Virus record (IMG/VR): IMGVR_UViG_3300048839_001287
Coordinates: 1 to 58,045 of that record
Strand: one strand, 5' to 3'
Length of the DNA stretch: 58,045 nucleotides
Origin: a virus
How positions within the stretch are numbered: the stretch's first letter is position 1; the number at the start of each line of letters is the position of its first letter. The notes beneath the pieces were generated by a model. The model was not told where the DNA came from. It made no database searches and was given only the letters and a program-made list of their open reading frames with translations. The translations under genes were made by a program, and so were the position numbers. Positions 6,749 to 42,791 of the stretch are shown here, in pieces.

Positions 6749-7182
6749 TTAGAATCATTCCCGATAAACTCCAATTAGGAGTTGATTACACTAAAACCAT
6801 GTCCTTCGATGACGCACAAAGATTAGCTGATAGACTCGGCCTTGATCTTGTGTGTGTCAACGAAGCCGCTTTAATATATACAATTACAAACGAAGAAAAG
6901 TTCCTTTATGCTGAAAAGAAAAGAAAGAAAAATAAGCCAAAGGAGCAAAAAACAATAAAAATTAAAGCGGGTATTTCTTCTGCTGATTTAGCTAGAAAAT
7001 TAGAAAATATACTAGAATTCAAAAAAGAAGGACATCCAGTAAAGATTGAGTGGTTCATTCCACAAAGAATGAAAAATGATGTTAATATTACAGCCTTCAA
7101 ATCTTTTTTAACTGTTTTATCTAGCCATTTTCTTGTCAAAATTCCAGAAACGATCGAGATAAAAACCATTTTATATATATGA
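6745..7182 (+). CDS. Translation initiation factor IF3-like protein
   Basis: I chose the ATG at 6745 (ATGA overlap); a longer start at 6715 is in frame. The 145-residue product follows the IF3 plan. The N-domain (1-55) has a strand-helix pattern with MSFDDAQRLADRLGLDLVCV, matching the AREAGLDLVEV region of IF3, then EKFLYAEKKRKK, matching YGKFRYEQKKK. After the Lys-rich linker, the C-domain (68-145) starts TIKIKAGISSADLARKL and continues through HPVKIEWFIPQRM, aligning with IKLRP, the helix and VKVTLRFRGREM of IF3. IF3 binds the 30S subunit, blocks 50S joining and checks the start codon. The C-domain is more diverged than the N-domain. Confidence 0.75.
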   Translation: MIRIIPDKLQLGVDYTKTMSFDDAQRLADRLGLDLVCVNEAALIYTITNEEKFLYAEKKRKKNKPKEQKTIKIKAGISSADLARKLENILEFKKEGHPVKIEWFIPQRMKNDVNITAFKSFLTVLSSHFLVKIPETIEIKTILYI

Positions 7183-17644: not shown

Positions 17645-18050
17645 AGATTACATTGTCGAAAAATTTGTTTCACACACAAAAGAATACCGTATCCATGTGT
17701 CTTCTTTGGGCAGATGTTTTTACACCTGTCGAAAAATGTTGAAACAGGACGCTACTGAAAGATGGTTCAGAAATTCCAAAAACTCCGTGTGGATTTTGGA
17801 AGACAACCCTCTTTTCGATAAGCCTATTACATGGAACGCAATTGTTCAAGACTGTCTTAAAGCCCTCAATGCTTTAGGTCTCGATACTTGTGCTTTCGAC
17901 GTAAAAGTAAACAAGAAAGGAGAGTGGAGTATTCTGGAAGGTAACTCAGCACCTTCTTTTGGAGACTGTACAATAGACAATCCCACGATTGTTGCACAAA
18001 GATACATAGAAGAATTTAAAGATTTAATAATCGAAAAAAGCAAAAAGTAA
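17187..18050 (+). CDS. ATP-grasp ligase of the amidoligase cluster
   Basis: 287 residues; ATG at 17187, with 17211 equally possible. The N-part has VIIRMGSTTTL and CANKLEMKRLF (substrate/ATP region of ATP-grasp), followed by FKTVNHSRGRGM (glycine-rich loop), then YIVEKFV and YRIHVSS. The C-terminal ATP/Mg site has CAFDVKVNKKGEW and LEGNSAPS (the usual E-x-N motif). It should make a carboxyl-phosphate and join it to an amine. It overlaps the upstream gene by 458 bases in another frame, at the G+C shift. It is joined by TAATG to the class II glutamine amidotransferase. Confidence 0.8.
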   Translation: MNLFISYKMKSKEYRALQIRSRHPSHRILRRTSILKQVSRGLSVIIRMGSTTTLSVDEKTLQLNPFEGVQACANKLEMKRLFTKFQVQTPPWVFIPRNLASEQALQVLKEINGRELNESSMLVFKTVNHSRGRGMMLLDWNQVREFLTKPRTKDYIVEKFVSHTKEYRIHVSSLGRCFYTCRKMLKQDATERWFRNSKNSVWILEDNPLFDKPITWNAIVQDCLKALNALGLDTCAFDVKVNKKGEWSILEGNSAPSFGDCTIDNPTIVAQRYIEEFKDLIIEKSKK

Positions 18051-23956: not shown

Positions 23957-26900
23957 CTATTTATCAAACAATTGAACTCCTGAAGAATAAATTTTATGTG
24001 CTTGAGTTGTGCCGGGTAAAAACTGCGCCGTTTCTCTAAGAATTCTAGAGTCTCCAGAGTACACACCAGATTTAATTTCATCTTCTCCTAACATTAATTT
24101 CCAAGTGGCATCCATTAGTTGTGTTGCATCACTGAATAATGACATGGCTGGAATTGGCCTCTTGATAAGCGTTTCCATCGCCGACGGATTAGAGTAAAAC
24201 AAAATGTCTGTTTGAACTCTAAGTAATTCATTAATCATAATATTCGTAAGGAAACTTCTGTCGTCATCGTCTTCTCCTTCTGTAGCATGTTTCAAAGCGG
24301 CTAAGGCTATTGTTGCAGTTATAAGAAGTAAAGTTTCATTGACGTTGGCAGATAAGTTTGCATAATCTACATCATCAAACTTATACTGTTCACCCATAAA
24401 AACTCCCTGCTGGTCTGCCTTTTTAATTACATGGCCTAACAACATTCTTCTAACTAACTCTCTACCCATCAGCATACTTTGCTTTGACCAATCTAGTCCT
24501 GTTCCATTAGCATAAGCAAATACACTAAAACCACTGCGATAACGCCCTTTTCTTTTATAACCCAAAGAATAATCCTCGTACTCTTTACCAAATCTATTGA
24601 AAAATCCTTCAAACATCCAGGTTCTAAATTGCGCTAACAATCTGCCTATAGAAGTTTTCTTTACCATCAACGGAGATTCTGGGTCATAGTTACCGTGGGT
24701 TTTCTTAATGGCCTGGTCTATCCTTACTTTAAAATCAAGAATAAAGTCTCTAGGCTCTTTTCCAAACTCAGCAGTATTCCATTTCCCATCATTTCCAAAA
24801 GCTTCCCACATTGGCCTTTGTTTACCATTATTATCAGTAATGGTTTCTTTCAACATCATAGCAATCATTACAGGGGCCTGGTTAATATACTCGCTTCGTT
24901 TTTGCATCTGGTAAGGACTAAGAAAACGCAGTCTGTTTATACCTAAAAGGGACTTTGAAGTAGCTTTATACATTTCATCAGAAGCATCCTTTAAAACATC
25001 CATTCTGTCCATAAGATTTCTAATCTTTAAAGCAGTAGGATGATTATATGAATTGAATGAAAAGTTTCTTAAAACACTTCTCATTACCATTGCCATAGCT
25101 TTTTTATATTCTTGTTCTCCAAATAGTCGTCCGTCTCCAGCCTCAATAATATTTGAAACAAGACCAAAACCCATGTTAGCTATACCAGATAAAATGTTCC
25201 ATCCCATTGACTTTAACTGCATCCAACGAATAGCACCATTGACCACACCAGAACCAGTAAGAACCCCACCAAGATATTCTAATTGGCCCTCAAGAATTTT
25301 CTTGTTACTATCATAAACAGACTTAATCATTAAGCCGTTCTTATAGTCTTCTTCGTTTTGAGTAAGAAGAGTTTCGATTTTTTTCTTTTGTGCTAACTCT
25401 TCACTAGTTAACAATTTCTTTTCACTCTTAAGTTCTACGTCTTGTTCGCGTAAACCATAAAACCTACGAAGAGCAAAATCAAGCATGTTTTTATAGTTAT
25501 CTAGGCCATCCTTTACAGCTAACTCTCCAGCAGTATTATGTAATGGTGCACCAGAAGAATTAGTATGCACTTCTTTTCTGGTTTGAAATTGTTGCTCAAG
25601 AAGTTTAACATAGTCTTCTATAGCTGCTTTATGGTGAAAAGAATAAGTAGTAAAAGCATACAGTTTAAGAATCTTACCCAAATCAAACGACTTGTTTTGT
25701 GCCATTTCATGTAAGATGTCTTTTTCCAAGGCTTTCTTTTCCAACACATTAGGAACACGTTTGTTAGTAAGTTGAAACTCAATAACAGCCGTTTTCATTT
25801 TTTGTTCTACCTCTGCTTTATGATTAGACATCATATGAAAACGAATATTTTTTTCGTCTTCTCCAGTAACAGGATCAATATCAGCAGTACTTGTGTCAGA
25901 TAAATCTTCACTACGAAGAATCTCTTTCATTGAATCCCATAATCCAATAGCAGCTAACTTGCCAGAATTATCAGAGCCAAGCTTTTCCACTAAGGTTTTT
26001 TTAATTGTAGGAATAGTATTCAAACGAATGTTTCTTCTTACGTCATGGGGCAAAAGAGCGTTCAATTGGTAAAGAGTTTCTGCCATAAAATCATAGAACT
26101 CAAAAAGATCATTATCCTTTTCTATAATTTCAAAGTTAGGATCATACCATTTAGTTTTTGCTCCTGTGGCACCATATTTTTTAGGTACAGCATAAGTTCT
26201 ATGTTGTCCTTGGATTCTTAATTTATTTCCCTTATGGTCTAAAATAATCTTATTATCTACTACTTTTGCTGCCGCCCAATAAGGAGAGTTGATTTTATCC
26301 CACTGGTCCATTAACTCGTCTTTTTCAGCAATAGTTGTTATCGGGTCACTATAAATACGGTCTTTGGCTAATTCATAATCAAACTCAAATTCCTCTACTT
26401 TCTTTTCCAGTCTTGCGATTAACTTGTCGTATCCCTTTTGTCCAAGAGCTTCTAATAAATCTTTCTTGTGTGTATCAACATCAACAGCAGTAAAAATTTC
26501 ATTGTTATAACGATAAACACCGGACTTTTTAGTTTTAGGAAAAAGCTTGCGAACATCAAACATGATTTCGTTATTTCTTCTCCATCTAAAATAAGCGTCC
26601 CAATGTTTAGGTTTGTTTGTTGATTCCGCTACTCTAAGTAATTTATCTTTTTCATCAAAATAATCTACAGAATAGCGCATCACCATATCTCCAGTCTCTT
26701 TTCCGTTAGAGTCTTTTTGTTTAAAGATAGAGTAAATATCTTTAGAGTTAATAGCCATCAACTTTGGACGAATCTTTTCTACAAGCTCATCGACCTTTTC
26801 ATTAATACTTGCAGAATCCATTCTTGCCTTTGTACTCTGATTTTTAATAGCAATGGCTAAAGACTGAAGCATAGGGTCTTTTGTTTCCGCCAAAGAAATA

Positions 26901-27964
26901 ACTTGCCCCATAATGCTGCCTATATCAGTAATAGCTTTGTAAATATCAGGAGTATTTAAAAGAGTGCCTGTATGTTTTTGTACAAAACCAGTAATAACAT
27001 CTTCCTGGTATTCTCTAAGTAAAGCAGAATAATGATCCATTCTTTGCTTATAATAAGCAAAGCCGTTTACCCAGTTTCCAGAAACACTTTGATAGCCATA
27101 TTTTAATCTATCAGACTGCAACTCAATATCATCAAATAAGATATGAGATTCTCCATCAGATAAATTAAAGTCACCTGCTTTTTGCCAGAATCGCATAATT
27201 CTTTGTAGATACGCAATTGTACCAACATCCATAGTTGGTTGCTTAAAGGCCCCTTCTACTTCTTTTAAATGCTCTTCAGCAAAATTTAACAGCGTTTCAA
27301 GATCTTTTGTTTTAGACAGTGCTTTAAGATTTTGATCTATATTTTCAATCTGATTGTATAGTTTTGCAATCTTAGCATCAATATTCTTTACGCCTACTTT
27401 ATTGTTTGCAGCTTTTGCGTCTTTTTTCTTTTGGAATTCTTGGCTTAATCTTTTATACAGTTCGCTTTTTTGTTTCTTAAAAGTTTCTCTTAAAGCGCCA
27501 AAACGATTCATTTTAGAAGAAGAAACGATAAGATCATCATACTCATATTCTCCGTCTCGATCAAAAGCTCCTTGAATTTTTACTACATTATCTTTAAGAA
27601 CAGGAACTTTATATTTGATCCCAGTAGGAGTTTGTATTTTTATTGGATTACCCAAAACAGGCAAATCAAATATCCTGTTTATCTTTTTAATTGACAATAC
27701 TCCTTGGGTATAAGAATTACTTCCAGATGCTTTTTGATTTACATAATAGTATCCTTTAGCATTATTCTTTCTGATACCTTGTTTTGCACTAACAGCTTCA
27801 TCAAGATAATGTTGCACAGTTCTATTGACGTCGATTCTTCCTTCTTCATTAAAAACAGGAGGAAGGGTAGTTCCGACTACCCCATCAAATTCTCCTCTTT
27901 CAAGTAACTGCTGCATTTCTTCAGCAGTATATTCTTTACCATTGTATGTATATGTACAAGCCAT
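23957..27964 (-). CDS. Giant virion protein downstream of the RNA polymerase (1335 aa)
   Basis: Last gene of the leftward unit, overlapping the polymerase stop by one base (TAATG). The start resembles other giant crAss-type proteins (MACTYTYNGKEYTAEEM). The middle is long alternating helix and coiled coil (residues about 160-260 and 830-900). The C-terminal ~150 residues have hydrophobic segments (LLLITATIALAALKHA) followed by DDDD. In crAss-like phages the giant proteins next to the DFDGD-type polymerase gene are packaged and injected with it. This one is probably a second polymerase-associated or ejection protein, but I can point to no catalytic motif. Confidence 0.7.
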   Translation of the reverse strand: MACTYTYNGKEYTAEEMQQLLERGEFDGVVGTTLPPVFNEEGRIDVNRTVQHYLDEAVSAKQGIRKNNAKGYYYVNQKASGSNSYTQGVLSIKKINRIFDLPVLGNPIKIQTPTGIKYKVPVLKDNVVKIQGAFDRDGEYEYDDLIVSSSKMNRFGALRETFKKQKSELYKRLSQEFQKKKDAKAANNKVGVKNIDAKIAKLYNQIENIDQNLKALSKTKDLETLLNFAEEHLKEVEGAFKQPTMDVGTIAYLQRIMRFWQKAGDFNLSDGESHILFDDIELQSDRLKYGYQSVSGNWVNGFAYYKQRMDHYSALLREYQEDVITGFVQKHTGTLLNTPDIYKAITDIGSIMGQVISLAETKDPMLQSLAIAIKNQSTKARMDSASINEKVDELVEKIRPKLMAINSKDIYSIFKQKDSNGKETGDMVMRYSVDYFDEKDKLLRVAESTNKPKHWDAYFRWRRNNEIMFDVRKLFPKTKKSGVYRYNNEIFTAVDVDTHKKDLLEALGQKGYDKLIARLEKKVEEFEFDYELAKDRIYSDPITTIAEKDELMDQWDKINSPYWAAAKVVDNKIILDHKGNKLRIQGQHRTYAVPKKYGATGAKTKWYDPNFEIIEKDNDLFEFYDFMAETLYQLNALLPHDVRRNIRLNTIPTIKKTLVEKLGSDNSGKLAAIGLWDSMKEILRSEDLSDTSTADIDPVTGEDEKNIRFHMMSNHKAEVEQKMKTAVIEFQLTNKRVPNVLEKKALEKDILHEMAQNKSFDLGKILKLYAFTTYSFHHKAAIEDYVKLLEQQFQTRKEVHTNSSGAPLHNTAGELAVKDGLDNYKNMLDFALRRFYGLREQDVELKSEKKLLTSEELAQKKKIETLLTQNEEDYKNGLMIKSVYDSNKKILEGQLEYLGGVLTGSGVVNGAIRWMQLKSMGWNILSGIANMGFGLVSNIIEAGDGRLFGEQEYKKAMAMVMRSVLRNFSFNSYNHPTALKIRNLMDRMDVLKDASDEMYKATSKSLLGINRLRFLSPYQMQKRSEYINQAPVMIAMMLKETITDNNGKQRPMWEAFGNDGKWNTAEFGKEPRDFILDFKVRIDQAIKKTHGNYDPESPLMVKKTSIGRLLAQFRTWMFEGFFNRFGKEYEDYSLGYKRKGRYRSGFSVFAYANGTGLDWSKQSMLMGRELVRRMLLGHVIKKADQQGVFMGEQYKFDDVDYANLSANVNETLLLITATIALAALKHATEGEDDDDRSFLTNIMINELLRVQTDILFYSNPSAMETLIKRPIPAMSLFSDATQLMDATWKLMLGEDEIKSGVYSGDSRILRETAQFLPGTTQAHKIYSSGVQLFDK

Positions 27965-30900
27965 TAGTTACATTTTTTACTTATAATACCCTCTTTCATT
28001 AAAAGTTCCAGCTCTTTCATCATTGTCATTTGCATGTCAAGTCGTTCTGCGGCCTCTTGTTTTTTAACCATGGCTGTGTCGTATTCTGCTAATAAATCAG
28101 GTCTGTTTTTTGCTAACCACGGACGGGGGTTAGAAGTTACTGGAAAACCCATAACTTGTGGTAATTCATTATGAGGAATAAACACTTCTTCATTTTTAAA
28201 TATTAATCTCAAATGACCCCTTTTGGTTCCAGAAGCAACCATATCATCAGAAACATCAACAACCTGCTCTTTATTTTTATTGCTTAACATAACCAATTGC
28301 GACTTAGTTGTTTGATAAAACTTGCCAGTATTAACCCACTCTTTGCTGAAAACAACATTACCAGGAATAGGACCGGCTTGTATAAACATATCCATCATTT
28401 CCAAACCTGTGTAACCGTTTAAAGATTTAGTTTCAACATTTCGATAAGCAACTTTAAAACTTTTATCTGGATTGTTCTTAGCTGCGGCATATAGCTTTTT
28501 AATGTTGTTAACAATTTGTTGAGGAGGGATTGACTTAAGTCCCTTATTATCCTTTACTCGTAAATCTTTTGTGGGTAACGCATAAGCATTGCCTTGTAAC
28601 CCCTCTCCTTGCCCATACTTAGCACCAAACTTTTCAACAGCAATTTTAGCTGCGCCAGCCCCGTGCCTTCCTTCTGGATTACTACCAAAAACAAAAACTG
28701 TCTTAGCATCAGGAATTATATCTCCTTCATAGTATAAAACATTTGGATCAATATTGGCAGTAACTTGAGGTTGAGAATTAAACAACTCTCCAAAGGTATT
28801 ATAATCATTAACATCCTTTGCTACAGCGTCAACAGCTTCGTTTCCTTGAACACCAGAGTGGCCTCTTACCCAATAATAAGAAACTTTACCCGGCCTCTTC
28901 ATAATCTCATCAACCAACTTGTCAGCAATAATCCTAATGTTATTATCTCCAGCAAAGTTACCTTTCGAGAAAGCTTCATTACCATAGATTTTTTTATCTA
29001 GAAGAGCCTTATCAAGTTTAACATACTGGGAAACTTTTTGATGAATTTCTTCTTGCTGTTTTGGTGTAAGAGTTTTCCAAAAATCTTTATAACCTTTTTC
29101 CGAAAGATGTGTGTTGTCAGTAACTCTCATTATAATTCTGGAAAGAATCCAAAGTTGAACACCTTCTAAGTCTTGGTAGATTTGTACAAACTCGAAAGAA
29201 GGAGTATTCTGAATAGCTACAAGAGAACCATAAAGTTCCATAACACCATTAGAAGGATCGCCTTTTATTTCTTCGCCAAGTTCTTTAGACATCTTTTCTA
29301 AACCGCCCTCAAACTTGTTGTAGTGGCCTGAGATCGAATGTTCTTTATCCCCGTGCTTCAGATATACACCGAAGCCTAATTTGCCCGCCTGCTTAATATC
29401 AGAGCCATCTACGAAGACCTGAAGAGGTTTATCTGGGGAACTAAATCGTGCTTGTGTTTGAATTGGTTGTTTTTGTTCTGGCTGCTTAATGTTTGCTTCG
29501 ATACGACTCTCAATAAGAGTTGTAATATCCTTAACAACATTTGCAGAAACTTCATCAGAGAAAGTGATGCCAATAGCCTTCAACAAGTCACTAATCAATT
29601 CTACAAACTTCTCAAACAATCCTTTGTCATTTAACTTTTCTTGGAAAGCAGGAGAAGTCATTCCTAAAGCAAAAAATTCTCTTAAGTTATGGGCACCATA
29701 AAGTGCACTAGCCTCTTCTCTGGTTAAGTTATCCCCATTCGTTTTTATATAAGCCTTGACATCGGTATCTTGTGATAACCCATATTCATCAAGAACAGCT
29801 TTCCTATATGTTTCTTGAAGTTTACTTAATCGAGCTATAATCGTTTTTTGTTGTGCCGTTAACTGATTTGGATTAATCCTATACTTATGTATGAGGTCGG
29901 TAGTCAAGCCATGGGTTAATTCATGCAGAACAACTTCTTCCAGCATACTTCTATTTTCTGCTTTGGAAGCATTGATTATAATGTTAACCTTATTATTAGT
30001 GCCATAAGTAGTTCTGGCAAGATATGGTGCTGTCGGATCATCAATAACTGAAATAGACCACTCAATACCTGTCTTATCAATAATATCTAAAATATTTTCA
30101 GCATACTCACGATAACCAAGGTTAGTTGTAAGAGACTTAATATTTTCAAGAACATCTTTGATTACAGGTAAAGACCCGTCCCCCAATTCCAGTTCTTCTA
30201 TCAACTGATTATAGTTTGGTTCCGCACTGGGAGTTATAGCTTTAATAACTTTTGCGGGTGCGGGAGCTTTTTGACTATTTCTTACTTTCTTGGCATCTTT
30301 AAGTCTAGTGTCATTATTAACAACAGAAGAAGACTCTGTGTTCCAAGAGTATTCTCTTATAGAGGCCACGTGTTTTTTACCTATAAATCTTGTGCCAAGA
30401 ACGGGGATTCTTTCATATTCATTACCACCAACATAAGCAAACAGATGCCATCCTTGGGGGACATCTGGATCTTTAAAAGAAATAAATTCAGTTAGCCATT
30501 CTCCGCCTTCTCTTTCAACAGTATATTCTTCCAGTTGATCTGGATTTATAGCAATAAAGTCTACCTCTTTTAGTTTAGTAATAGGTTGTTGTTTTCCTTC
30601 TGGAGTAACTAAATTAAAATGTTCAACTTCTCCCCTAGTAATACTACCAGGATTATGCTGTACGAATTGTTTTGTATATTTGCTATACTGATATGGATTT
30701 TCTTTTTTCATTACAACTTCCACATCCTTGCTATTAGCAAATGTAATTTTATTCATCGCTTCAGCAAATCCTATCTTTTGCAGATATTCTACAGGAATAT
30801 ACTTTACATATTGAGAAGCTTCTTGTAAGCCACCAGTCATATAAGCATAAAGAATTAACTCCCTACCCAAGTCCTGGGTAGTCATTGTCTTTCCATTAAA

Positions 30901-33900
30901 TTCGCCAATTGGAATTGGATGTACAAGCAACTCCATGAAGGAAGCATACAGATTTAGTTCATCATAGTTTTCAGCAGTTGCAGCATTGAACGTAACAGTA
31001 CTAGGTAAATCTCCTTTTCCAAGTCTTGGTCTTAATCTATTTAAGAAAGCATTATTCTTGAAGAATTCCTGATCTTTAGATGCCAACAATATAGCCGCCA
31101 AAGAATAATGTTCAAACGTATCCTCTCCGGTTTTTACATCAAATAAAAGCCTGCGCCTTTCTACACTAGCTGATTCAGTACCAAGATTAAGGGCAGCCGC
31201 ATTTGAAAACAGATAGGCTTTCAAGTCTTTCCAAACTTTTTCATAGTAATCTGCCTTTGCTTGTGGCGGAAGATTCATTTTACCAGTAACCTGAAGAATC
31301 TCTTCCATCTGCACTTGAATAGCATCTTGGTGGAATGGGAACAATTGTCTCCACAATCTATTATTAAGCAACAAAGCATTCTTAGTTGCATGACCATTGA
31401 TAGTATTAAATTGAACATTTACATGAGCACCAAATCGAGTATAACGCCCAAGTACAGTATGCCCGTTAACTATAGGAGAAACATCTAAAGAATAAATAGA
31501 CTCTTCTTTAGTCATACTAGAAAATATTGATTTGCCAACACCAGCAGAGTCGGTATTGATAGCAGACTGAATCTTTTTCAACTCTATACCATATGGTTGA
31601 AGGAAAAGAAACTTAGCAAGAAGAGCCGCCTGTTTCTTTTTATAATCAGGATAAGCTTCCCCCTGTTCGATCATTGCCATCATTTCTGCTGACCCAATAT
31701 TATCAGACTGCTCTACTAGTTTATCAATAATCTGTTGCTTTTCTTCTGGACTGGCTTTTAAGAACGCTTGTCCATAGTATTGTCCAAATAATTCATTTCT
31801 CACTCTTATTGCAGCCCCAACTTCATATTCTTTCAAAGAGTTGGTCGCCTTACTTAGTTTGTCTACATACTCAAAAATAATATCTTGGGAAATAAATGGG
31901 GCAACAACAGATTCATCAAAACCAAGTTGATTAAGGATACGAATAACATCATACGTGTAGTTATTCACATTGATCTTATCCATGATCTGTTCCTTCTCAT
32001 TATCCACAGCAGCCGACTGATAAGCAGCAATTACATCAGACTTATAACGTTTAGTAGTACCAAGAACATATTTACCAGATAAATCACCGCTCGATCTAAT
32101 ATTACCAAACACAATTGGCATTGGTGGCAAACTTTCCTCATCAAAAATAAACTGCTCAGTTAAATAAATTTGTTCACCAGAAACAGCATAAGCATGTTGC
32201 ATTACGGAGTTAAGAACGGAGTCAAGTGAAAATACACCGACACCGCCAACTCTACCAGCCATAGCATTGATAAACTTTTGCTTTTGATATGAATCAGAAA
32301 GAGGAGAAAATATTTTATCACTGTGTTTTCTAGCTGCTCTAGCAGAACTAATTTTTGCAGCAAGATCTTTTCCGCCTTTTAAATCACCATAAGCAAGAGG
32401 GGCATGAATTTGTTGCTGAACCACATCCCTTGGATCTGACATTACTTCAAAGTGAATATCAATAATGTCATTCTGAATACTCTTCTTATAATTACTGATT
32501 TGCTTAACAATATCTTTTCGAAGTAATTCGGCTTCAACTTTATCTAAACCAGCTTCAACAGCAGCATTAATATAATCCATCAAGAAATCTCTTGATTCAT
32601 TAATACCCATATTGTATTTAAGAAAATCACTGAACCTATTAATTTTAAATGTCCCCTCTTCCCCATTAAACATGTGAGTATAGAAGTAATCATTTAAATC
32701 AACAACAGAGTTTGCCTTTTCAACTAAACCTTTTATTGGATCAGCAAAAGAAGCCTTCTTAATATAAGGAGATTTTTCTGCCTTTATAGTTTTAATTTCT
32801 TCTATTAATTGTTTTCTTCCTTTTATTGTTTCGGACATTTCTCCAATCTCATCATACAGTTTATTTATTGCATCATAGATTTTCTGAATTTCTCCGGATT
32901 TATTCTTATTGAACTGAATTAATACTTGCTTTAAAGCTTTTGCATATTGAATTTCTTGTTCATCCTTAATCCACGCACCAAGATGTTCGGCACCAGCCTT
33001 TTCATTTAAAGAAGAGGCGTTAATTCTTTTAAGTTTGGCAATATCATTATCCATTAAGTTTCTAGCATAAGCCTTCAACTTAATAAAGTCTACTTTATCT
33101 GGATTATAAAAAGAACCGGTACCAACCACATTACTAAAGAATGCTCGGAAAGATGTGAACATTCTATCGCCAGCCTTGAACCCAAGTTCAGGAACATATA
33201 AGTCTGAATTAATAGATGTTATAGAAAGAATTTTTTCCTTCTTTAATTTACCAAGAGTTGCTTTAAAATAATCTAGCTTATCATAAGCCTGTTTGAGTTT
33301 GCCGTTTTCTTTTGAGAATATTTCCTGATTATCATCAATCAAAGTTCTCAACTGAATATTTAGCAAATCCAACTTATTCTGAGATTGTTCACTTAATGCC
33401 GAGTAATTTGTATGATGCATATACAAGTAAACCTTATCTACGTCAAAGTCAGAACCCATCTGTACAACAAGTTCTTTTGGCGCCACAATCATGTCACCAT
33501 GTGCTTTAGGCAAAAATCCAACTATTTCAAAATAAGCCATAGAGTTATGGCCTTGAGTTGGAATACGGAAACCAAATGTTTTTAAAAGCTCCTTATCAAA
33601 TTTAGTTGTGTCAAGAAACTTCTTACCATTTTTTTCTACGATAAAACTATCAATCTTTAATGCTTTACCATTATTGTCCAGAAATTTAAAGGGCATAAGA
33701 ATTTGCCCAGGTTTAAATTCTCCGTTTTCTACACGCATTGGCTGTAATCCTAACATTGGATCAAAACCTTCTACAAAAGTAATGTCTGGAGAATCTTTCA
33801 TGGATTCCCACTCCTTGAATTTAAAACCTTCTTCAGTTGCAAGTACGAGAGATTTCCCCGGGAAAGTCATCTTTCTCACTCTATTATCTACAATACTATT

Positions 33901-36900
33901 TAATAAGGCTTGTATTCTATCTGAAGAACTAGACGCCCAAAGAGGCATAACAAAAGAACCGTCGTCTTTAATATCTAAAGCATAAATATCATTTAAAGGA
34001 TAGTTTCTTTTTACAGCTTCATCTATAAGTAAGTTTCTCAACTTTCTTACATCTATTGTACCGTTATTATAACCAAGTTCATATTCCAAATCTCTCGCGG
34101 CTAATTCAAAAAGCTTTTGATAGTTTTTATTATACCTATCAAATTTTTCTTTCATTCCCGGAAGATCGAGAATATTGTTGAATAACAACTTCCTTTCTTG
34201 TGTACCAACATTAATTTCTTTCTTGTCTGCATCGTAAGGAATTTCTTGCTGAATTCTTAAACCGGCCCTAGGCAAAGTACGAACAGCCAGGTGCAGTTTT
34301 TCTGAATTATTGGAAAGGTCTGCTATAACTTCAGAATCAAAGCCACCTTCAGGTTTAACAAGTGTAGGCATATTCTTGTTAGAAGGAGCCCCCACTTTTG
34401 CAGCAGTAAGAAAAGCAGCACGATCAATACCATTCTTTTCCATAAGAATACGCAGCTCATCTAATTCTGTTCCTTTCACCATTGAAGGGGAAAGAGCAAA
34501 AGAAGATGATTTAATATACACGCGCCTGTCAATATTATTATCAAGGTCGATAACATTATTTACATAAACCGGCTTTAATGGTTGAAACACCAATGATTTG
34601 AACAACTTATAATCATCTTCTGAGACAGACTTTTTAATAGCCTCATCATAGTAATGATTACCATTTGCAATCTCTTTGTCTATTACATTTTTAATAGTGT
34701 TATACAAAGCAACAGGCATTTTACCTGTATGCCTTAATATATACATGTGTTCAGTTAAAGTAGTAATCTCCTGTGCATCAGTAGAAGCTATTTTACGATA
34801 ATCACCCGCAGCAGCTAACCCAAGTTTTTCAAAGAAAGCAGCAACAGTTGAGGCCACTTTTCTGTCTTTTATAAACAACTGTTTAAAACTATTGTTCTCT
34901 TGATCGTTAAGATCATAACCGGGGGCCATGTCACCAGCAAGACGTTTACCAACGTTTAAGAAAGTATCACCAACCATAGCTATTCTTTCTTCATCAGTAA
35001 GCCTATTTCTAAAAACAGACTGGTCAATTTCTTCTGGTGTATATAAAGACTCGGTATCTTTAGCCAGTTGTTCTCTTCTTCCCTTTAAAACCCCAGATTT
35101 AAAAAACATTGCTGGATCACCAATAACCATTTGATACATATTGGCATTAGCAAGTAAATAGTTAGCCACATAATCTGTTGCCGCATATTTAACTTTATCA
35201 AGTCTGGTTTTAGCTAATGGGCTCATTGTAGAGTTCATATAAGCTAAATCCATAAAAGCAGGAGGAGTTTCTTCATCTATATAACCTATACCCAATTCTT
35301 TCCACTCTTCCATTTTTTCTTCTACCAACTTAGTAACGTGATTCTTAATCACTTCCTTCATGATAGAAACATATTCCGGTTTTTCTAAAAGATCAGATTT
35401 AAGGGTTCCATCTTCGTTAAACAACGCGGAAACATTATTCAACTCAGGAACCATATAGAACATAAACCAACCCTCTTCCATACCAGCGTCATTCACTTTA
35501 CCGCCTTTAGCTTGATAGTAATGTATACGATTAATTTCTGGAAGAATCATTTGCTCATACAGCAGATCAACCATATTCTGATCTATTGTGCCGTCTGGAG
35601 TAATATTAACTTTAGTCTTGATGGCTTCTACAAGCATCATGGTTGTCTTATCAGACATAGTTGGATACATGAAATAGACTTTACCGTTTCCTTTATTTTG
35701 AAAAGCAGTAATCTTAACTACTTCATGTTCAGCGCTATCCGCTTGTTTCATTTCAGGGCCATCAAAACCAAACTTTTGTTTGATTGCCTCCAGACCCATA
35801 TAATGTAAATCGAAAGCATCCATAAATGGGGTTTCTGGCTTTTCAAGGTCTGGGTTGTTTTTCTTTTCTTTTTGCCATTTATCCAAAGCATTGTGATCAG
35901 CGTATAGTTGATCAAGCCAAGAAGAATTCTGACTAAAGCTAATGTTGCTTAAGGCATCTACTATGCTTATATCTGTTTTCAAGTCCCTTACTCTTTTAAC
36001 ATTATATTTGTTAAGAGCATGAGAATAAACAGTTTCATTACCAGTTCTATGTGAATTGGATAAAACGTAAGAGGAATATTTCGCCTGAACTTCTGCTAAT
36101 CTTTTAAAGGCAGTTTCAGCCAATGGGTTGTTTACAGATATAGGCCTGTCTCCACGAACTTTAAAATTCTCATAAAGAAGTCTAAATGCACCGCCTTTAT
36201 TTTTAAATAGGCCAATAAATTTTCGCGGGGGCCACCCAACTATTTCTGCCCAAGCTTTATCGTCAAGAGTAATACCAACTTCTTCTAACCATTTTCTTCC
36301 TTCGGCTCTCATTTTTGGAAGAGAATTGGCATCACGAACAGCAAACCCCTTTTCCGGATTAATCCACTGTTCGTATTGATTCATCAACCTATTAGTAATC
36401 CTTGGATCAAGAATTAAGTCCGCAGGATCATTTGGATCGGGAACAGTAATTTTATTGTTGATAAAGTTATCATACCACCCATCTTCTATTTGTCTTGCTA
36501 TAGCATTTGCATTAGCATCATAAACAGAAAGATCATAACTACCATCTTTGTTCTGACTCCACATAATAAATTTCATGGAGACATAATGCTTAGACATAGC
36601 AACCACAAACTCTGTCTTTACTTCGTCAGAAGCATTGTCAAGTCTGTTGATGACATTCTGTAACCAGGGGTAGGCCTTTCTAAACTTTTTCAGATGTTTC
36701 ACCATCTGATCGTAGTCTGCCCTTTGTCCAGACAAAAGAGAAATAAGAGTATTGTAAACAGTATCAAATGGTACTCTTTCCACCATATCAGCCGTATATG
36801 CTTTCTTTGGTGCAATAGTGTTATTAGGAGTTATATAAGCATCCTCAATAAAATGGAAAAATCTTCTTAATCTACCAGACATTGTAACTTTTCCGTCGAT

Positions 36901-37566
36901 CTTGAAAGTAGCGTTATCTTCATAACTGCGTTTTTCCATTGATGCCGTATCGTCCAACTCTGTTTCAGATTCTTCTACAGTAATAATATTTAAAGCATTA
37001 ATTTTTTGCTTGGCTAGTCCTGTTAATTGATCAAAGTTTTTAAGGATCTTTTTTATTTCAACAGCTTGTGCTGCATCAGTATCTCTTACTTCTGAAAGTT
37101 TTGCACGGAAATAATCTTTTAATTTTCCAAATAACTCTTCTTCAGAATACTTTTTTTGTTTTCCTTCAATAACATTCTTTACTACAGCATCAGCCATAAA
37201 ATCCACAACAACCTGTTGTTTTGCAACACCAAGATCGGGTATAATTAACTGTGCTAAATTAGTATGTTCTAATTCTTTTTGTACCGCGTCTGACATGCTT
37301 GGGAGCATATCATCTGCTTGCATATCCATAAAACTAAGTACAGACTCAATGGAAGGTTCTGAATAAACAGTCAGTCCATCGACCTGTTCTTTTGTCCAAT
37401 CCCCACCAATATAACCCATAAAGGAGGGAGAATAGGATAACGTGTAAGCAGCATTAGCCGCCGACACGTTACCTTGAAAATGGTCTAACAAACCAGCAAA
37501 TAGTTCGCTTTGAACTTCTTGCCCAGCATATCGACCATGCGTAGGAGTAAATACTTTACAATTCAT
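27964..37566 (-). CDS. crAss-like virion RNA polymerase fused to protease, RNase HI and macro-like domains (3200 aa)
   Basis: Residues 1373-1377 are DFDVD inside GSDFDVDKVYLY, the metal-binding loop of the double-psi-barrel RNA polymerase found in crAss-like virions. That polymerase is thought to enter the cell and transcribe early genes. Further on is HELTH (2548-2552) in a VVLHELTHGL helix, a zinc metalloprotease signature. A complete RNase HI layout follows: D2720 in VFVDGSD, MELYGSL, YQDLEG, H2903 and D2913 in RGHSGVQGNEAVDAV. FVFGSNPEGRHGAGAAK (from about 2958) is a macro-like segment. The first ~1300 residues and the region 1400-2400 are mostly helical with no motif I recognise. Confidence 0.85.
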   Translation of the reverse strand: MNCKVFTPTHGRYAGQEVQSELFAGLLDHFQGNVSAANAAYTLSYSPSFMGYIGGDWTKEQVDGLTVYSEPSIESVLSFMDMQADDMLPSMSDAVQKELEHTNLAQLIIPDLGVAKQQVVVDFMADAVVKNVIEGKQKKYSEEELFGKLKDYFRAKLSEVRDTDAAQAVEIKKILKNFDQLTGLAKQKINALNIITVEESETELDDTASMEKRSYEDNATFKIDGKVTMSGRLRRFFHFIEDAYITPNNTIAPKKAYTADMVERVPFDTVYNTLISLLSGQRADYDQMVKHLKKFRKAYPWLQNVINRLDNASDEVKTEFVVAMSKHYVSMKFIMWSQNKDGSYDLSVYDANANAIARQIEDGWYDNFINNKITVPDPNDPADLILDPRITNRLMNQYEQWINPEKGFAVRDANSLPKMRAEGRKWLEEVGITLDDKAWAEIVGWPPRKFIGLFKNKGGAFRLLYENFKVRGDRPISVNNPLAETAFKRLAEVQAKYSSYVLSNSHRTGNETVYSHALNKYNVKRVRDLKTDISIVDALSNISFSQNSSWLDQLYADHNALDKWQKEKKNNPDLEKPETPFMDAFDLHYMGLEAIKQKFGFDGPEMKQADSAEHEVVKITAFQNKGNGKVYFMYPTMSDKTTMMLVEAIKTKVNITPDGTIDQNMVDLLYEQMILPEINRIHYYQAKGGKVNDAGMEEGWFMFYMVPELNNVSALFNEDGTLKSDLLEKPEYVSIMKEVIKNHVTKLVEEKMEEWKELGIGYIDEETPPAFMDLAYMNSTMSPLAKTRLDKVKYAATDYVANYLLANANMYQMVIGDPAMFFKSGVLKGRREQLAKDTESLYTPEEIDQSVFRNRLTDEERIAMVGDTFLNVGKRLAGDMAPGYDLNDQENNSFKQLFIKDRKVASTVAAFFEKLGLAAAGDYRKIASTDAQEITTLTEHMYILRHTGKMPVALYNTIKNVIDKEIANGNHYYDEAIKKSVSEDDYKLFKSLVFQPLKPVYVNNVIDLDNNIDRRVYIKSSSFALSPSMVKGTELDELRILMEKNGIDRAAFLTAAKVGAPSNKNMPTLVKPEGGFDSEVIADLSNNSEKLHLAVRTLPRAGLRIQQEIPYDADKKEINVGTQERKLLFNNILDLPGMKEKFDRYNKNYQKLFELAARDLEYELGYNNGTIDVRKLRNLLIDEAVKRNYPLNDIYALDIKDDGSFVMPLWASSSSDRIQALLNSIVDNRVRKMTFPGKSLVLATEEGFKFKEWESMKDSPDITFVEGFDPMLGLQPMRVENGEFKPGQILMPFKFLDNNGKALKIDSFIVEKNGKKFLDTTKFDKELLKTFGFRIPTQGHNSMAYFEIVGFLPKAHGDMIVAPKELVVQMGSDFDVDKVYLYMHHTNYSALSEQSQNKLDLLNIQLRTLIDDNQEIFSKENGKLKQAYDKLDYFKATLGKLKKEKILSITSINSDLYVPELGFKAGDRMFTSFRAFFSNVVGTGSFYNPDKVDFIKLKAYARNLMDNDIAKLKRINASSLNEKAGAEHLGAWIKDEQEIQYAKALKQVLIQFNKNKSGEIQKIYDAINKLYDEIGEMSETIKGRKQLIEEIKTIKAEKSPYIKKASFADPIKGLVEKANSVVDLNDYFYTHMFNGEEGTFKINRFSDFLKYNMGINESRDFLMDYINAAVEAGLDKVEAELLRKDIVKQISNYKKSIQNDIIDIHFEVMSDPRDVVQQQIHAPLAYGDLKGGKDLAAKISSARAARKHSDKIFSPLSDSYQKQKFINAMAGRVGGVGVFSLDSVLNSVMQHAYAVSGEQIYLTEQFIFDEESLPPMPIVFGNIRSSGDLSGKYVLGTTKRYKSDVIAAYQSAAVDNEKEQIMDKINVNNYTYDVIRILNQLGFDESVVAPFISQDIIFEYVDKLSKATNSLKEYEVGAAIRVRNELFGQYYGQAFLKASPEEKQQIIDKLVEQSDNIGSAEMMAMIEQGEAYPDYKKKQAALLAKFLFLQPYGIELKKIQSAINTDSAGVGKSIFSSMTKEESIYSLDVSPIVNGHTVLGRYTRFGAHVNVQFNTINGHATKNALLLNNRLWRQLFPFHQDAIQVQMEEILQVTGKMNLPPQAKADYYEKVWKDLKAYLFSNAAALNLGTESASVERRRLLFDVKTGEDTFEHYSLAAILLASKDQEFFKNNAFLNRLRPRLGKGDLPSTVTFNAATAENYDELNLYASFMELLVHPIPIGEFNGKTMTTQDLGRELILYAYMTGGLQEASQYVKYIPVEYLQKIGFAEAMNKITFANSKDVEVVMKKENPYQYSKYTKQFVQHNPGSITRGEVEHFNLVTPEGKQQPITKLKEVDFIAINPDQLEEYTVEREGGEWLTEFISFKDPDVPQGWHLFAYVGGNEYERIPVLGTRFIGKKHVASIREYSWNTESSSVVNNDTRLKDAKKVRNSQKAPAPAKVIKAITPSAEPNYNQLIEELELGDGSLPVIKDVLENIKSLTTNLGYREYAENILDIIDKTGIEWSISVIDDPTAPYLARTTYGTNNKVNIIINASKAENRSMLEEVVLHELTHGLTTDLIHKYRINPNQLTAQQKTIIARLSKLQETYRKAVLDEYGLSQDTDVKAYIKTNGDNLTREEASALYGAHNLREFFALGMTSPAFQEKLNDKGLFEKFVELISDLLKAIGITFSDEVSANVVKDITTLIESRIEANIKQPEQKQPIQTQARFSSPDKPLQVFVDGSDIKQAGKLGFGVYLKHGDKEHSISGHYNKFEGGLEKMSKELGEEIKGDPSNGVMELYGSLVAIQNTPSFEFVQIYQDLEGVQLWILSRIIMRVTDNTHLSEKGYKDFWKTLTPKQQEEIHQKVSQYVKLDKALLDKKIYGNEAFSKGNFAGDNNIRIIADKLVDEIMKRPGKVSYYWVRGHSGVQGNEAVDAVAKDVNDYNTFGELFNSQPQVTANIDPNVLYYEGDIIPDAKTVFVFGSNPEGRHGAGAAKIAVEKFGAKYGQGEGLQGNAYALPTKDLRVKDNKGLKSIPPQQIVNNIKKLYAAAKNNPDKSFKVAYRNVETKSLNGYTGLEMMDMFIQAGPIPGNVVFSKEWVNTGKFYQTTKSQLVMLSNKNKEQVVDVSDDMVASGTKRGHLRLIFKNEEVFIPHNELPQVMGFPVTSNPRPWLAKNRPDLLAEYDTAMVKKQEAAERLDMQMTMMKELELLMKEGIISKKCN

Positions 37567-40500
37567 ATTTTACATTTATTATTTACTTTATTCCTTGTTT
37601 GCCCCATAACAATCATATCATCTTCCCAATCAATCATTTGCTCATCAGATGGATTTAATCCTAAATCTCCAAGAATATCACCTGATTTTGTCTGTATTTC
37701 TTCGTCTGGAAAATCTGGGTCAGGATTTTCATTATCCTCATTCATTGCCCACTCTCCATCATGTTCATTTACCCATTTAATGAAAGCGTTTATATCTGCA
37801 TCAACATCAGGATTAATTCCCATTTCATTTGAATATTCGATGTACTGGCCAAAATCTCCAACAGATTTATATCTGAGGGTAGAATAGTATCTATCATCTG
37901 GAAAAATTAACTCTTCTTCTTGTTTCGCCAATCTTATCTCTGCTAATCCCCTTTCTAAAAAGATCTGCCTGGCGGCTTCTCTCTGAACAGCAGTATACTC
38001 ACCAAGACCATCAACAATGTTAGTAATCTCTTTATCAGACATACCAATCATGTTGTTCATTTCTTTAGTAACCTTGGTTCTATTTGCTTTCGTGTCCTTA
38101 ACAAACTCTAAACCTTTGAATGCCTCTTTAATTGTTGGGGGAGCAACATCGGGTTCAACACTTACTTTCTGGGTAGTGGTTGGAGTAGAAGTCTCCTCTT
38201 CCATTACCACCTTATATTCAATAGAAGGTTGATAAACAAAAGTAAAAGTGTTTCCAATTTGTACTGGTCTTAATCTTGTTTGTAATCCCATTTTGATGAA
38301 ATCAACATAGGAGCCGTCCTCATTTAATTTCTTTGTAAAAAGTTTACCTTCATTCGTAGTAATAAGAACGACAGGGGATTTTTTGTTTTCAGTTAATCGA
38401 CTGATAGAAACATTCAATTTCATTGCCTTAATATGATCTATCAAAAGAGGGCGAAGAGTTTTCTTTACTTCCGCAGGAGTTTCTTTTGATATAGAAAACG
38501 TTTTATCTGCACCACCAACAGCAAAATCAACAGAGTTACCACTAAAGTTTACAAATCTATGTGAAGAACTTAGAGACTCTCCAGCAGTCTTTACAAAAGC
38601 ATCTAACGGAGACATAAAGCCCCTTTCTTTAAAATCATCAAAGATTTTGTCTGGAGTAAAATTATATAAGAAATGTCCAAGATAAGCATAAAGGCCGGCT
38701 TCGGTTGTAATATCAATCCCCATAACATCAATAATCTCATCAATATATGCCTGTATATTAGCATCATATTCTCCTTTATGAGTTGCAATAAAGATTGCAT
38801 TTACCAGAGCCTCTGCCGTTTCGTTATCTATATTTCCAGGCCTTAATGTAAAACCATTCCAACCCCCTTTAGATGGCACAAACAAATAAGGAATACCAGG
38901 ATAAAGTTTCTCTTCATTATTGATTTTTTTAACATCAGTAACATTGTGTCCAACAATATTACTTTCTTTCATAATACCAATCTTTAACGAATCATTATTT
39001 TCAGAAGGGACTAATTCCTCTAGAGTTTGAAAATCTTCTTCTATTTTAAATACGCCACCATATTTATCTGTAATAACGATTTTCTTAGCTCTGCCTGCTA
39101 AAATATTTCTTCTAATATCCATTAACTTTTGAGCGTCTTCCTGCATACCAGCGGCGTCGTTAGCAACACGAAGATTGTTAATAAACTCAATATTATGAAG
39201 ATAAGCAATCACTTTACCATTGTGCTTTACAGCAATAGGAACCATTGCAGTAACAACATCGTTTGCATTGTCAAACCCAAAATGTTTTGCATAACGGTCT
39301 TTGTTGTTTTTAATTTCTCCCCAAGTAGTTGTTTCATTCACTCCACCAGGAAGATAAGTTGGCACGTTATTATCATCAACAACCTCTAATTCAAACTCTG
39401 CTCCAGGATATATAATACTATTATCGAGAATAGTTTCATAGTCATCTATAAATTCATCTGTATCTACTCTGAAAATCTTACCGCCTTCTACACCAGGAAC
39501 CACATCTGCATATACTCTATGTAAGTAAGCAAGAAAATTGTGGGCTGTAAAATGTCTGGCATAATCAGCTTCATAAGGATACTGTGTAAGTTTAGGACTA
39601 TCTTGTAATCCTTTTTCAGCAGCCTCGTCGTAATATTCTTCACCAGCCAAAAGCTTTTCCTCTGTTAGCATAGATTCAGGAATAGCAGCATCATATACTG
39701 TATCTACATTTTCAAGTAATTGCGCAATCTCTTCATCAGATAAATAAATATCTTCAAACTTAATAGCTGATACTTGAGCGGCTACTTCTTGGTCTATTTG
39801 AAAAGTTGGAGCATAAAAAGATTTGATATAAGGAAAAATCTTTTCCATTACTTTTTTGTCTACAGTTTTAGAGATTTCTCTCATTACTGCATAGAAAGCT
39901 CCTGGGCTATTAAAATCGTAATCAGGATTATCTTCTAAGATAAGCTCTGCTGTCTTTTTAAACAGTTCTGTAGAAGCTTGCATAACTTGTAGCTTCTTGG
40001 CAGAACTCATGACAGCAGCCATATCATCTCCTTCCTCATTAATAAGGTTAAAGATTTCCATAGCAGATGAGCGAATACCGGCTTGTTGAGCACTTAGATC
40101 ATTACCCAAAGAAACAACAGTTCCTTTTTGCATCAATACCCATTCTCCATCTTGATTTACATATTGAGCAGGGGAAACAACTTTAAACTTATCACCGTTT
40201 GTGAGAGGATCTTTTATGTCAAAAGCCTGTCCCAACGTATTAAATTCTTCTGTATAAGTATAACCATCGACAGCATTATCAGAAGGATAAACGTACATGA
40301 GATTTCCTTCACGAGTTCCAGTATAAGGCATTTCATTACCAGGAATTGTTTCTTGAGTTGTAATAGAACCATCTGGATTAACGTAGGCAAAAGAAGTCTT
40401 AATCTCTGGTTCAGGAGAAACTTCTTTTTCCTGCTCCAACATCGCATCAATATCTTCATTTTTTGCCTGATTTGTTACAACAGGAGCTTCTGTTTTAGGT

Positions 40501-42791
40501 TCGGCAGGACTCTTTTTTGTCCTCTTCTTCTTTGGTTTTGGAGCCGGTTCTGGGGTCGATGGAGTTTCTGGTACTATCTCTTCTGTTTTTTGCTCTTCTT
40601 TTCGCCACCTATAAGTCATTATCGCATAAGATCCAGTTCCAGAATAACTAAAAACTTTACCTTTAATAATATAAGCACCCTCTTCTTCATCTTCTATTTG
40701 GTAAACAGTACCATCTAAAACAACAGAATCGCCAATTTTTAAGTTGCGCGGCAATTTTCTATCCGGGGAATTGTTGATATTAAAAGCCCCGTCCGGAATT
40801 TCAGGTTTTTTAGATTTATTCACTTTAAACTCATCTAGGTAATCCCAAACACCCTTTTCTTCTAAATAATTAATAACTCCATCCTCAATTTTTGAAAGCT
40901 TTTTGGAAAGTTTAGAATAACCCTCGCCCATAAACTTTTTAGCAGACTTAAAGATACTTTCTTTTTTCTTGGTTTCTTTTTGTTCTGCAACAATTTCTTT
41001 CTGTCTTTTCTCTTTCTTAGCCAAAAACTCTCTTCTTGCCTTTTCAAGTTCTCTTGTATACTTAGTAGAGGAAACAGTTTTTAAAGCTTTCTGTAATTCA
41101 CCAACGGCAACCTCCATTTCTTTTACATCAGCAGCAAACTGATTAGCCTTAGTCTTTAATATATTATCAGCAGGATTAGCTTCTGCGGCAAGTCTAGTTT
41201 GTTCTTCTTGCTCTTTAAGATAATCAAGGCGATCGTTAGCCATGTTCAAAGATTCTCTAGCATAGAAAACCTTAGGTTGTTGCAAAGGGTCGGAATAACG
41301 CGTATCAGATACCCACTGCTTTTCTAACCTTTTAACCAATTCAAGATCCTTTTGCGCATCCTGTTCGCCAGCAGCTACTCTATCTTGAAGAAGATTAATG
41401 AGAGGTTGCATAGTGCCTATCTCCATATTTCTTATAGCAAGCTTTGTAAGATTCGCACGACGAACAATTTCTTGCATATTATCGTCGTTTTGTAAAGCTG
41501 CTTGATGCATAATAGACACAGCTTCTTTTTGAGAATTAATGTCTTTCTCAATAAACTTTTTGGTTTCTTCAACTAAAGCTTGTTGAGTATTGTATTGTTC
41601 TTGTAATTTATTGAGTGACCCTTTCTGATTAGTTAAAGCTGACGAGACAACTCTCTGCCCGGCACCGCCCAAGAAACCAAGAATACCCTCATATTGAGCT
41701 TCTGGTTTCATGAAGTTCATCAAAGTACGGACAAACAAATCTGTATTATCTTGTTCGACCATTATAGGCTTGGTTGCTTGATATTGAGATTCAGTAGAAA
41801 TTATACTTTGTCCAATTTCTTCGGCATACTCGCCCAATCCTTGCAGCAACAAGTCATCAGCAGTAAAAGTTCCAAAAGCCTTCTTATACTTTTGAAGAGG
41901 AGTAATTAGATCTTTACTATCAATTAAGTTTCTAGTATAATTCTTAAAGTTAGAAAGACCAGCAACACCGAGAATATTTGTAACAAGAAAAGCTTTGTTG
42001 GCCATATACATATTACGTCCAGCATCAGCAGCTCTACGAGTTGCTTCGGCGTCAGTTAATTTGTATTTCGTCATTAACTCTTCCTTTGTGTTCTCAAAGG
42101 TCTCAAGAGCCATCATTTTTGATTCGCCTATGTTTGTCCAATAACCAGCACCAACAGCGTTAATCATATTTGCCATTGGTTTAGATACGCGCATAATCTT
42201 TGAATACGCTGCCAATTTCTGTGCATAACTAAGAACCTTAACGGCGCCAGCAGATGGAACAGCAAAACCTACTGCATTATCTATTAAAGATTTTGTAGCA
42301 GAAAAATAGGAAGCCCAGTCACCTAAATCAAAAAATTGGTCTGGATTTTCACGATAAATAGGCATAGACTTATTAGTCCACTTCTTTAACTGTTTGCCCC
42401 AGTTAGAAAGAATGTTACTTTCTACTTCATCAACTCCACGAAGAACATCTAAGTTATTTTTAAACTGCGCCATGTATCCAATATCTTCCATAGCAGTACC
42501 TACAGCCGAAACCAGACCACCGGCTACAGCATTAAAAGCCTGAGCAGCAGCAGACTGATTAGAAGCTCTATAGGCTTCTTGATTCATTCCTGTTTTTAGG
42601 TACCTGTCTTTTTCCTCATCAAATTTAAATTGATCAAATTCAAAAGGCTTGTGTATATTAACAGGACTTGTAGCATTTGGAGCAGATGGGCCTTGAATAG
42701 GAGAATCCTTTAACGGGTTAAACGTTAAATCATATTTAGGTTCCTTTTCTGGAAGATTGGTTAACGGATTAAGTTGGTTATTCATTTCCAA
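37563..42791 (-). CDS. Giant cargo/ejection protein (1742 aa)
   Basis: N-terminal Pro/Asn-rich start, then Ala-rich hydrophobic parts (AFNAVAGGLVSAVGTAMEDIGYM; AVGFAVPSAGAVKVL) suited to membrane insertion during injection. A long coiled coil runs from about 385 to 640. A charged Pro/Lys/Glu linker (TPSTPEPAPKPKKKRTKK) follows around 750, then a large mostly beta/helix C-part. Sits between the 709-residue virion protein and the polymerase in the position of crAss-type ejected cargo proteins. No enzyme motif seen. Confidence 0.68.
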   Translation of the reverse strand: MEMNNQLNPLTNLPEKEPKYDLTFNPLKDSPIQGPSAPNATSPVNIHKPFEFDQFKFDEEKDRYLKTGMNQEAYRASNQSAAAQAFNAVAGGLVSAVGTAMEDIGYMAQFKNNLDVLRGVDEVESNILSNWGKQLKKWTNKSMPIYRENPDQFFDLGDWASYFSATKSLIDNAVGFAVPSAGAVKVLSYAQKLAAYSKIMRVSKPMANMINAVGAGYWTNIGESKMMALETFENTKEELMTKYKLTDAEATRRAADAGRNMYMANKAFLVTNILGVAGLSNFKNYTRNLIDSKDLITPLQKYKKAFGTFTADDLLLQGLGEYAEEIGQSIISTESQYQATKPIMVEQDNTDLFVRTLMNFMKPEAQYEGILGFLGGAGQRVVSSALTNQKGSLNKLQEQYNTQQALVEETKKFIEKDINSQKEAVSIMHQAALQNDDNMQEIVRRANLTKLAIRNMEIGTMQPLINLLQDRVAAGEQDAQKDLELVKRLEKQWVSDTRYSDPLQQPKVFYARESLNMANDRLDYLKEQEEQTRLAAEANPADNILKTKANQFAADVKEMEVAVGELQKALKTVSSTKYTRELEKARREFLAKKEKRQKEIVAEQKETKKKESIFKSAKKFMGEGYSKLSKKLSKIEDGVINYLEEKGVWDYLDEFKVNKSKKPEIPDGAFNINNSPDRKLPRNLKIGDSVVLDGTVYQIEDEEEGAYIIKGKVFSYSGTGSYAIMTYRWRKEEQKTEEIVPETPSTPEPAPKPKKKRTKKSPAEPKTEAPVVTNQAKNEDIDAMLEQEKEVSPEPEIKTSFAYVNPDGSITTQETIPGNEMPYTGTREGNLMYVYPSDNAVDGYTYTEEFNTLGQAFDIKDPLTNGDKFKVVSPAQYVNQDGEWVLMQKGTVVSLGNDLSAQQAGIRSSAMEIFNLINEEGDDMAAVMSSAKKLQVMQASTELFKKTAELILEDNPDYDFNSPGAFYAVMREISKTVDKKVMEKIFPYIKSFYAPTFQIDQEVAAQVSAIKFEDIYLSDEEIAQLLENVDTVYDAAIPESMLTEEKLLAGEEYYDEAAEKGLQDSPKLTQYPYEADYARHFTAHNFLAYLHRVYADVVPGVEGGKIFRVDTDEFIDDYETILDNSIIYPGAEFELEVVDDNNVPTYLPGGVNETTTWGEIKNNKDRYAKHFGFDNANDVVTAMVPIAVKHNGKVIAYLHNIEFINNLRVANDAAGMQEDAQKLMDIRRNILAGRAKKIVITDKYGGVFKIEEDFQTLEELVPSENNDSLKIGIMKESNIVGHNVTDVKKINNEEKLYPGIPYLFVPSKGGWNGFTLRPGNIDNETAEALVNAIFIATHKGEYDANIQAYIDEIIDVMGIDITTEAGLYAYLGHFLYNFTPDKIFDDFKERGFMSPLDAFVKTAGESLSSSHRFVNFSGNSVDFAVGGADKTFSISKETPAEVKKTLRPLLIDHIKAMKLNVSISRLTENKKSPVVLITTNEGKLFTKKLNEDGSYVDFIKMGLQTRLRPVQIGNTFTFVYQPSIEYKVVMEEETSTPTTTQKVSVEPDVAPPTIKEAFKGLEFVKDTKANRTKVTKEMNNMIGMSDKEITNIVDGLGEYTAVQREAARQIFLERGLAEIRLAKQEEELIFPDDRYYSTLRYKSVGDFGQYIEYSNEMGINPDVDADINAFIKWVNEHDGEWAMNEDNENPDPDFPDEEIQTKSGDILGDLGLNPSDEQMIDWEDDMIVMGQTRNKVNNKCKI

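Follow-up and report, generated by a model that had tools for sequence, protein, structure and literature searches.

A giant crAss-like phage RNA polymerase with a zincin module, a variable C-terminal slot and paired terminal cysteines

The 3200-aa protein encoded on the minus strand of the window – the whole 58,045-bp virus record analysed here – is probably the catalytic subunit of a crAss-like phage virion RNA polymerase (RNAP), the reading that best explains the protein as a whole. As shown for its homologues, the enzyme would be packaged together with the DNA and, once ejected into the host cell, transcribe the early genes. We further propose, with confidence that stands about midway, that the crassvirus virion RNAP is ejected as a disulfide-chained train, with reducible links standing in for peptide fusion.

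The assignment rests on the polymerase core: residues 979-1384 match the crystal structure of the phi14:2 virion RNAP (6vr4, E=1.8e-22), and the DxDxD motif (DFDVD, aa 1373) lies within this homologous core. The preliminary description had named an RNA polymerase on the strength of DFDVD, and its single occurrence, the structure match and its presence in the clade alignment all bear this out (Table 1). A direct search with the full-length query returned no close relative. The Flavobacterium phages FpV4/Fpv3 align over 80% of aa 1-2400 with 26% identity. The same description had held that its reading would fall if relatives lacked the motifs; the relatives keep the catalytic residues of the RNAP, zincin and RNase HI domains.

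Giant phage RNA polymerases are known to be injected through a narrow tail. In the window, the plus strand carries the replication side and the minus strand the virion side, with virion structural PHROGs matching a 1324-aa ORF as well as other window ORFs. The minus-strand order of 1324-545-709-1742-3200-1335 aa resembles that of phi14:2 g071-g065, the 1742-3200-1335 aa stretch corresponding to the gp67-gp66-gp65 cluster; the gp65-like ORF has blastp homologues in cr116 gp48, cr112 gp5 and FpV4 gp33, and the gp67-like ORF was assigned from its position, size and terminal cysteine. That the polymerase is a virion protein, as originally stated, is here derived from synteny with phi14:2 g067-g066-g065 and crAss001 gp47/gp49/gp50: the sequence record notes give MS/MS identification of phi14:2 g067-g065, and crAss001 gp47, gp49 and gp50 are present in virions (PMC10172136). 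By analogy with these relatives, from which packaging and ejection are inferred, the window RNAP is very likely packaged in the virion. Elsewhere in the window, tRNA-Met(cat) and tRNA-Leu(taa) genes lie at 491-564 and 2214-2298, and the plus-strand side encodes a COOH-NH2 ligase (14095-14967), a class II glutamine amidotransferase-like protein (18050-19786) and an amidoligase (19786-21468), a combination that suggests a peptide- or protein-ligation pathway.

Table 1. Location of the polymerase gene, its partner genes and the domains and residues discussed in the text
Feature	Position in window	Strand	Basis
Virion RNAP catalytic-subunit gene, 3200 aa, phi14:2 gp66 homologue	27964..37566	(-)	ORF calling, ATG start; 6vr4 E=1.8e-22; FpV4 gp32
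gp67-like upstream partner, 1742 aa, sole Cys = residue 1740 (37572-37574)	37563..42791	(-)	synteny; Cys census
gp65-like downstream partner, 1335 aa, sole Cys = residue 3 (27956-27958)	23957..27964	(-)	blastp; Cys census
RNAP core aligned to 6vr4, aa 979-1384	33415..34632	(-)	6vr4 match; clade alignment
DFDVD metal-binding motif, aa 1373-1377	33436..33450	(-)	single copy; clade alignment
Zincin domain, aa 2440-2700	29467..30249	(-)	HExxH and third-ligand conservation; profile matches to N4 vRNAP, ejection proteins
HELTH zinc motif, aa 2548-2552	29911..29925	(-)	single copy in ORF
E2630, predicted third zinc ligand (NLREFF)	29677..29679	(-)	Glu in 65/67 aligned relatives
RNase HI domain, aa 2714-2918	28813..29427	(-)	PF00075 4e-11; relatives
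RNase HI catalytic D2720	29407..29409	(-)	invariant in all relatives
RNase HI catalytic E2777	29236..29238	(-)	invariant
RNase HI catalytic D2799	29170..29172	(-)	invariant
RNase HI H2903	28858..28860	(-)	invariant wherever alignment reaches
RNase HI catalytic D2913	28828..28830	(-)	invariant wherever alignment reaches
A1S_2505 domain, macro-like candidate, aa 2957-3077	28336..28698	(-)	NF049995 5.9e-29; phrog_2072; DarG comparison
Cys3, N-terminal cysteine of RNAP	37558..37560	(-)	one of two Cys in 3200 aa
Cys3199, C-terminal cysteine of RNAP	27970..27972	(-)	one of two Cys in 3200 aa

C-terminal to the polymerase there appears to be a conserved gluzincin of the type found in ejected phage proteins. 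In a survey of 80 RNAP loci, where the background frequency of HExxH was 0.107 per 1000 aa overall, the motif was found 765-1254 aa (median 925) past DxDxD in 67/79 RNAP ORFs, and 65 of 67 relatives (97%) have a glutamate aligned to E2630; H2548, E2549 and H2552 together with the downstream E2630 give the HExxH-plus-Glu signature of a gluzincin. The zinc protease first recognised from HELTH is thereby supported, while its wider nature as a general ejection-protein module had been overlooked. A zincin profile built from 41 members matches an internal virion protein (2.2e-12) and the tetrameric ejection protein gp48 (3.3e-7). It also matches ~3500-aa virion RNA polymerase chains (5e-7), in which HELVH occupies the corresponding position and which, from their size and name, we take to be the N4 enzyme. 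Judged by these profiles, the zincin is homologous to zincins of the N4 virion RNAP and of podovirus ejection proteins. The polymerase of the N4 enzyme is of the T7-like single-subunit type and unrelated; the zincin would therefore be a module of ejected proteins rather than of one polymerase family, and its sharing marks a common ejected-protein module. SprT-like Pfam models match 14 of the 41 zincin members (best 1.6e-6), and the window zincin by itself gave no match.

Downstream of the zincin lies an RNase HI domain. PF00075 matches aa 2714-2918 with 43.7 bits against a gathering cut-off of 25.8 (E=4e-11), and the full residue set listed in the preliminary description (D-E-D-H-D, Table 1) is present and invariant in aligned relatives; with 25-33 of 160 bits the domain does not reach the NCBIfam RnhA equivalog cut-off and is not filed as RnhA itself. 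We had initially taken the fusion to be unique to the window, with 124 records lacking a fused copy, a view overturned by searching with the RNase HI domain as seed: eight more contigs carry it as an RNAP fusion (L173, L175, L176, L177, L179, L180, L181 and L190; L179 and L181 appear to be nearly the same), and L178 carries it unfused. The RNase HI of L175 is 44% identical to that of the window, and elsewhere the two proteins align over just a 50-aa RNAP segment at 39%; given such divergent polymerases, the RNase HI module would move between them. An active site conserved between sequences this far apart speaks for a functional enzyme, which most likely would clear RNA-DNA hybrids left by the polymerase as it transcribes the incoming DNA.

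The last domain contains GSNPEGRHGAGAAK at aa 2961 and matches NCBIfam A1S_2505 (NF049995, 5.9e-29, aa 2957-3077). The segment had been described as macro-like, an assignment that we could not establish: A1S_2505 is present and its bacterial fusion partners are of the ADP-ribose type, but none of the 64 A1S members matches PF01661 (Macro) or any other Pfam family, and the absence of matches to MacroD-type profiles led us to reject a MacroD-type macrodomain. Against DarG/ALC1-type macrodomains, hhalign gave a sub-threshold probability of 25.6% (P=7e-4, with controls at P 0.1-0.6), in an alignment that pairs the N..G..G.G.A loop and, on visual inspection, places the PTKD motif in register as well; 2/64 members match PADLOC DarG. 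No macro or DarG genes were found in the jumbo phages with stand-alone A1S. The bacterial fusions join A1S_2505 to ADP-ribosylglycohydrolase (PF03747, 4e-32), YpsA SLOG (PF06908, 2e-13) and DUF4326 (the loci are L249 4987-6339, L220 5968-6954 and L218 5956-6675). The DarG profile similarity and these partners support an ADP-ribose role, and a macro identity is plausible but unproven; most likely the domain would be a DarG-like ADP-ribose binder or hydrolase that counters host ADP-ribosylation. The window copy shares 52-77% identity (median 63.5%) with those in RNAPs whose cores are 20-42% identical (median 26%), and among 35 RNAPs the domain lies ahead of the core in 10 and behind it in 25; on this evidence A1S_2505 is a module that moves between RNAPs.

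Pfam and NCBIfam scans of 47 tails C-terminal to the zincin detected a RecD2/Pif1-like helicase in 17, A1S_2505 in seven, NADAR in four, and DUF7831, cpYpsA SLOG, AlkB-like and GP30.3 domains in two each, with RNase H in the window tail alone. Judged from these contents, the region after the zincin is a variable slot, swapped between phages and here apparently holding RNase HI and A1S_2505, whose recurrence marks them as payload modules and not as peculiarities of a single genome; the earlier reading of the C-terminal domains, right about RNase HI, had missed the slot. NADAR domains occur within the giant RNAP ORFs of relatives (G018 6772-7131, G010 30175-30450 and other tails). With its RNase HI, helicase and ADP-ribose-type domains, the slot offers a catalogue of functions delivered alongside the first polymerase, probably directed against R-loops and ADP-ribosylating defences.

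The preliminary description, whose RNA polymerase, zinc-protease and RNase HI identities are supported, had overlooked the cysteines. The RNAP has exactly two in 3200 aa, where ~14 would be expected at a background frequency of 0.45%. Its partners have one each, at residue 1740/1742 of the gp67-like protein (third from the C-terminus) and residue 3 of the gp65-like protein, and the phi14:2 proteins are arranged likewise (gp67 1797/1797; gp66 3 and 2179; gp65 3). Internal cysteines are absent from 76/117 RNAP ORFs, and some reference RNAPs have a few. Across 159 adjacent-ORF junctions, cysteine is present on both sides in 92, on neither in 59 and discordant in eight; after thinning to 83 loci with <60% core identity the numbers are 66, 45 and six (Fisher p=1.7e-25, not an exact probability, the loci being still related). 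Cysteine-paired junctions span 23957-42791 in the window and are also seen in L098, L173, L175, L281 and others. Upstream of the gp67-like gene, two ORFs of 709 and 545 aa (42778-46534; candidate ejection cargo) have no cysteine, and the 1324-aa structural protein (46531-50505) has 14.

Neither gene order nor strand nor splitting of the genes alters the pattern, and three comparisons separate protein-level from DNA-level causes. First, Steigviridae (cr112, frurule, crAss001 and DAC15) keep it with the gp67-like protein encoded on the opposite strand. Second, ~13 loci have an RNAP that is divided within its catalytic core into two ORFs (L092, L093, L098, L099, L104, L107, L109-L111, L113, L119, L124 and L158); in those inspected, the first half ends in a KKC[DE]-like cysteine tail, the second begins with MAC or similar, and a ferritin-like gene lies between (PF00210, 1.1e-12, tested on L098). 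Third, the crAss-like RNAP gene of L175 (3194-13672), in which ~12 TGA codons lie in frame and are apparently recoded, belongs to a four-ORF chain with paired cysteines at every inner junction. Where neighbouring genes are fused, the cysteine is absent at the fused end, and it is likewise missing from the outer ends of the chain, the gp67-like N-terminus and the gp65-like C-terminus. We found no description of the pattern in the papers searched, which does not establish its absence from the literature.

How are the terminal cysteines best rationalised? Their retention across opposite-strand, split, four-piece and fused cases would follow if they form mutual links between neighbouring chains, for which disulfides are, we infer, the simplest chemistry. 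Terminal disulfides would chain gp67, RNAP and gp65 head to tail in the virion, and the chain would pass through the tail as a single string in fixed order and separate in the reducing cytoplasm. The crAss001 study analysed both reduced and non-reduced samples, and other disulfides in the virions are the ones it reports (PMC10172136). It is possible, though we doubt it, that the cysteines are not mutually linked and instead bind metal, dock the proteins separately on the portal or cargo, or act as packaging tags: the N-terminal cysteine does lie in a tag seen repeatedly (MACxYxxNG, MxxCPN), which might serve for docking, but a general tag would be expected on every cargo protein and at both ends, whereas the outer ends lack cysteine and fusion removes it from the fused end. 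It is very improbable that translational coupling, or a DNA motif at gene junctions, produced the cysteines as a side effect. While stop and start codons often overlap or nearly so, TGT and TGC are both used, the spacing ranges from -10 to +80 nt, and the pattern survives an intervening ferritin gene; we rejected a DNA-level cause as contradicted by the opposite-strand cases. Disulfide-linked chains would offer a specific answer to the question of how cargo of several megadaltons is kept in order, passed through the tail and put together again. The pairing is the part of our analysis likeliest to surprise a specialist, and it is testable in the existing isolates phi14:2 and crAss001.

The roles of the two predicted C-terminal enzymes also admit other readings. 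The zincin may act on the polymerase chain or on a host target, cleaving it as a processing protease after entry into the cell, a reading to which we give slightly less than even weight: HExxH and the third-ligand glutamate are conserved, and metalloprotease domains of polyvalent proteins have been proposed to free partner domains (PMC5512222), but the phi14:2 polymerase works without an HExxH. Similarly, stand-alone RNase HI genes in phages (L172, in an RNAP-clade record, and L178) would fit an enzyme that removes replication primers, or transcripts of the host, instead of polymerase-made hybrids. We consider this rather unlikely for the fused enzyme, as RNase HI recurs specifically inside injected RNAP genes, at differing positions, which suggests that it acts during early transcription or before it.

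The protein can be set against several known systems. The N4 virion RNA polymerase is likewise a giant injected RNAP with a homologous zincin C-terminal to the polymerase, and differs in its polymerase type. phi14:2 gp66 (PDB 6VR4) shares the catalytic core, the gp67-gp66-gp65 order and terminal Cys3 and Cys2179; unlike the window protein, it is 2180 aa long and lacks HExxH and an A1S match, and PF00075 has no match anywhere in the phi14:2 genome. The closest named relative, Fipvunavirus FpV4 gp32, has a zincin (HEVIH) at the same place and a C-terminal KNCN, but fuses the gp67-like protein and the RNAP in one 4287-aa chain without RNase HI or A1S. For the transcription block of crAss-like phages, Yutin 2021 (PMC7886860) described large multidomain RNAP proteins in which the additional domains vary, PDDEXK being one example; its text does not mention a metalloprotease, zincin, RNase H or macro domain. 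Finally, the polyvalent proteins of Iyer 2017 (PMC5512222; crAss, RNase H and macro domain are not mentioned in that text) are also long, injected and combine a metalloprotease with varied effector domains, whereas here the backbone that carries them would be a two-barrel RNAP, of the double-psi beta-barrel kind.
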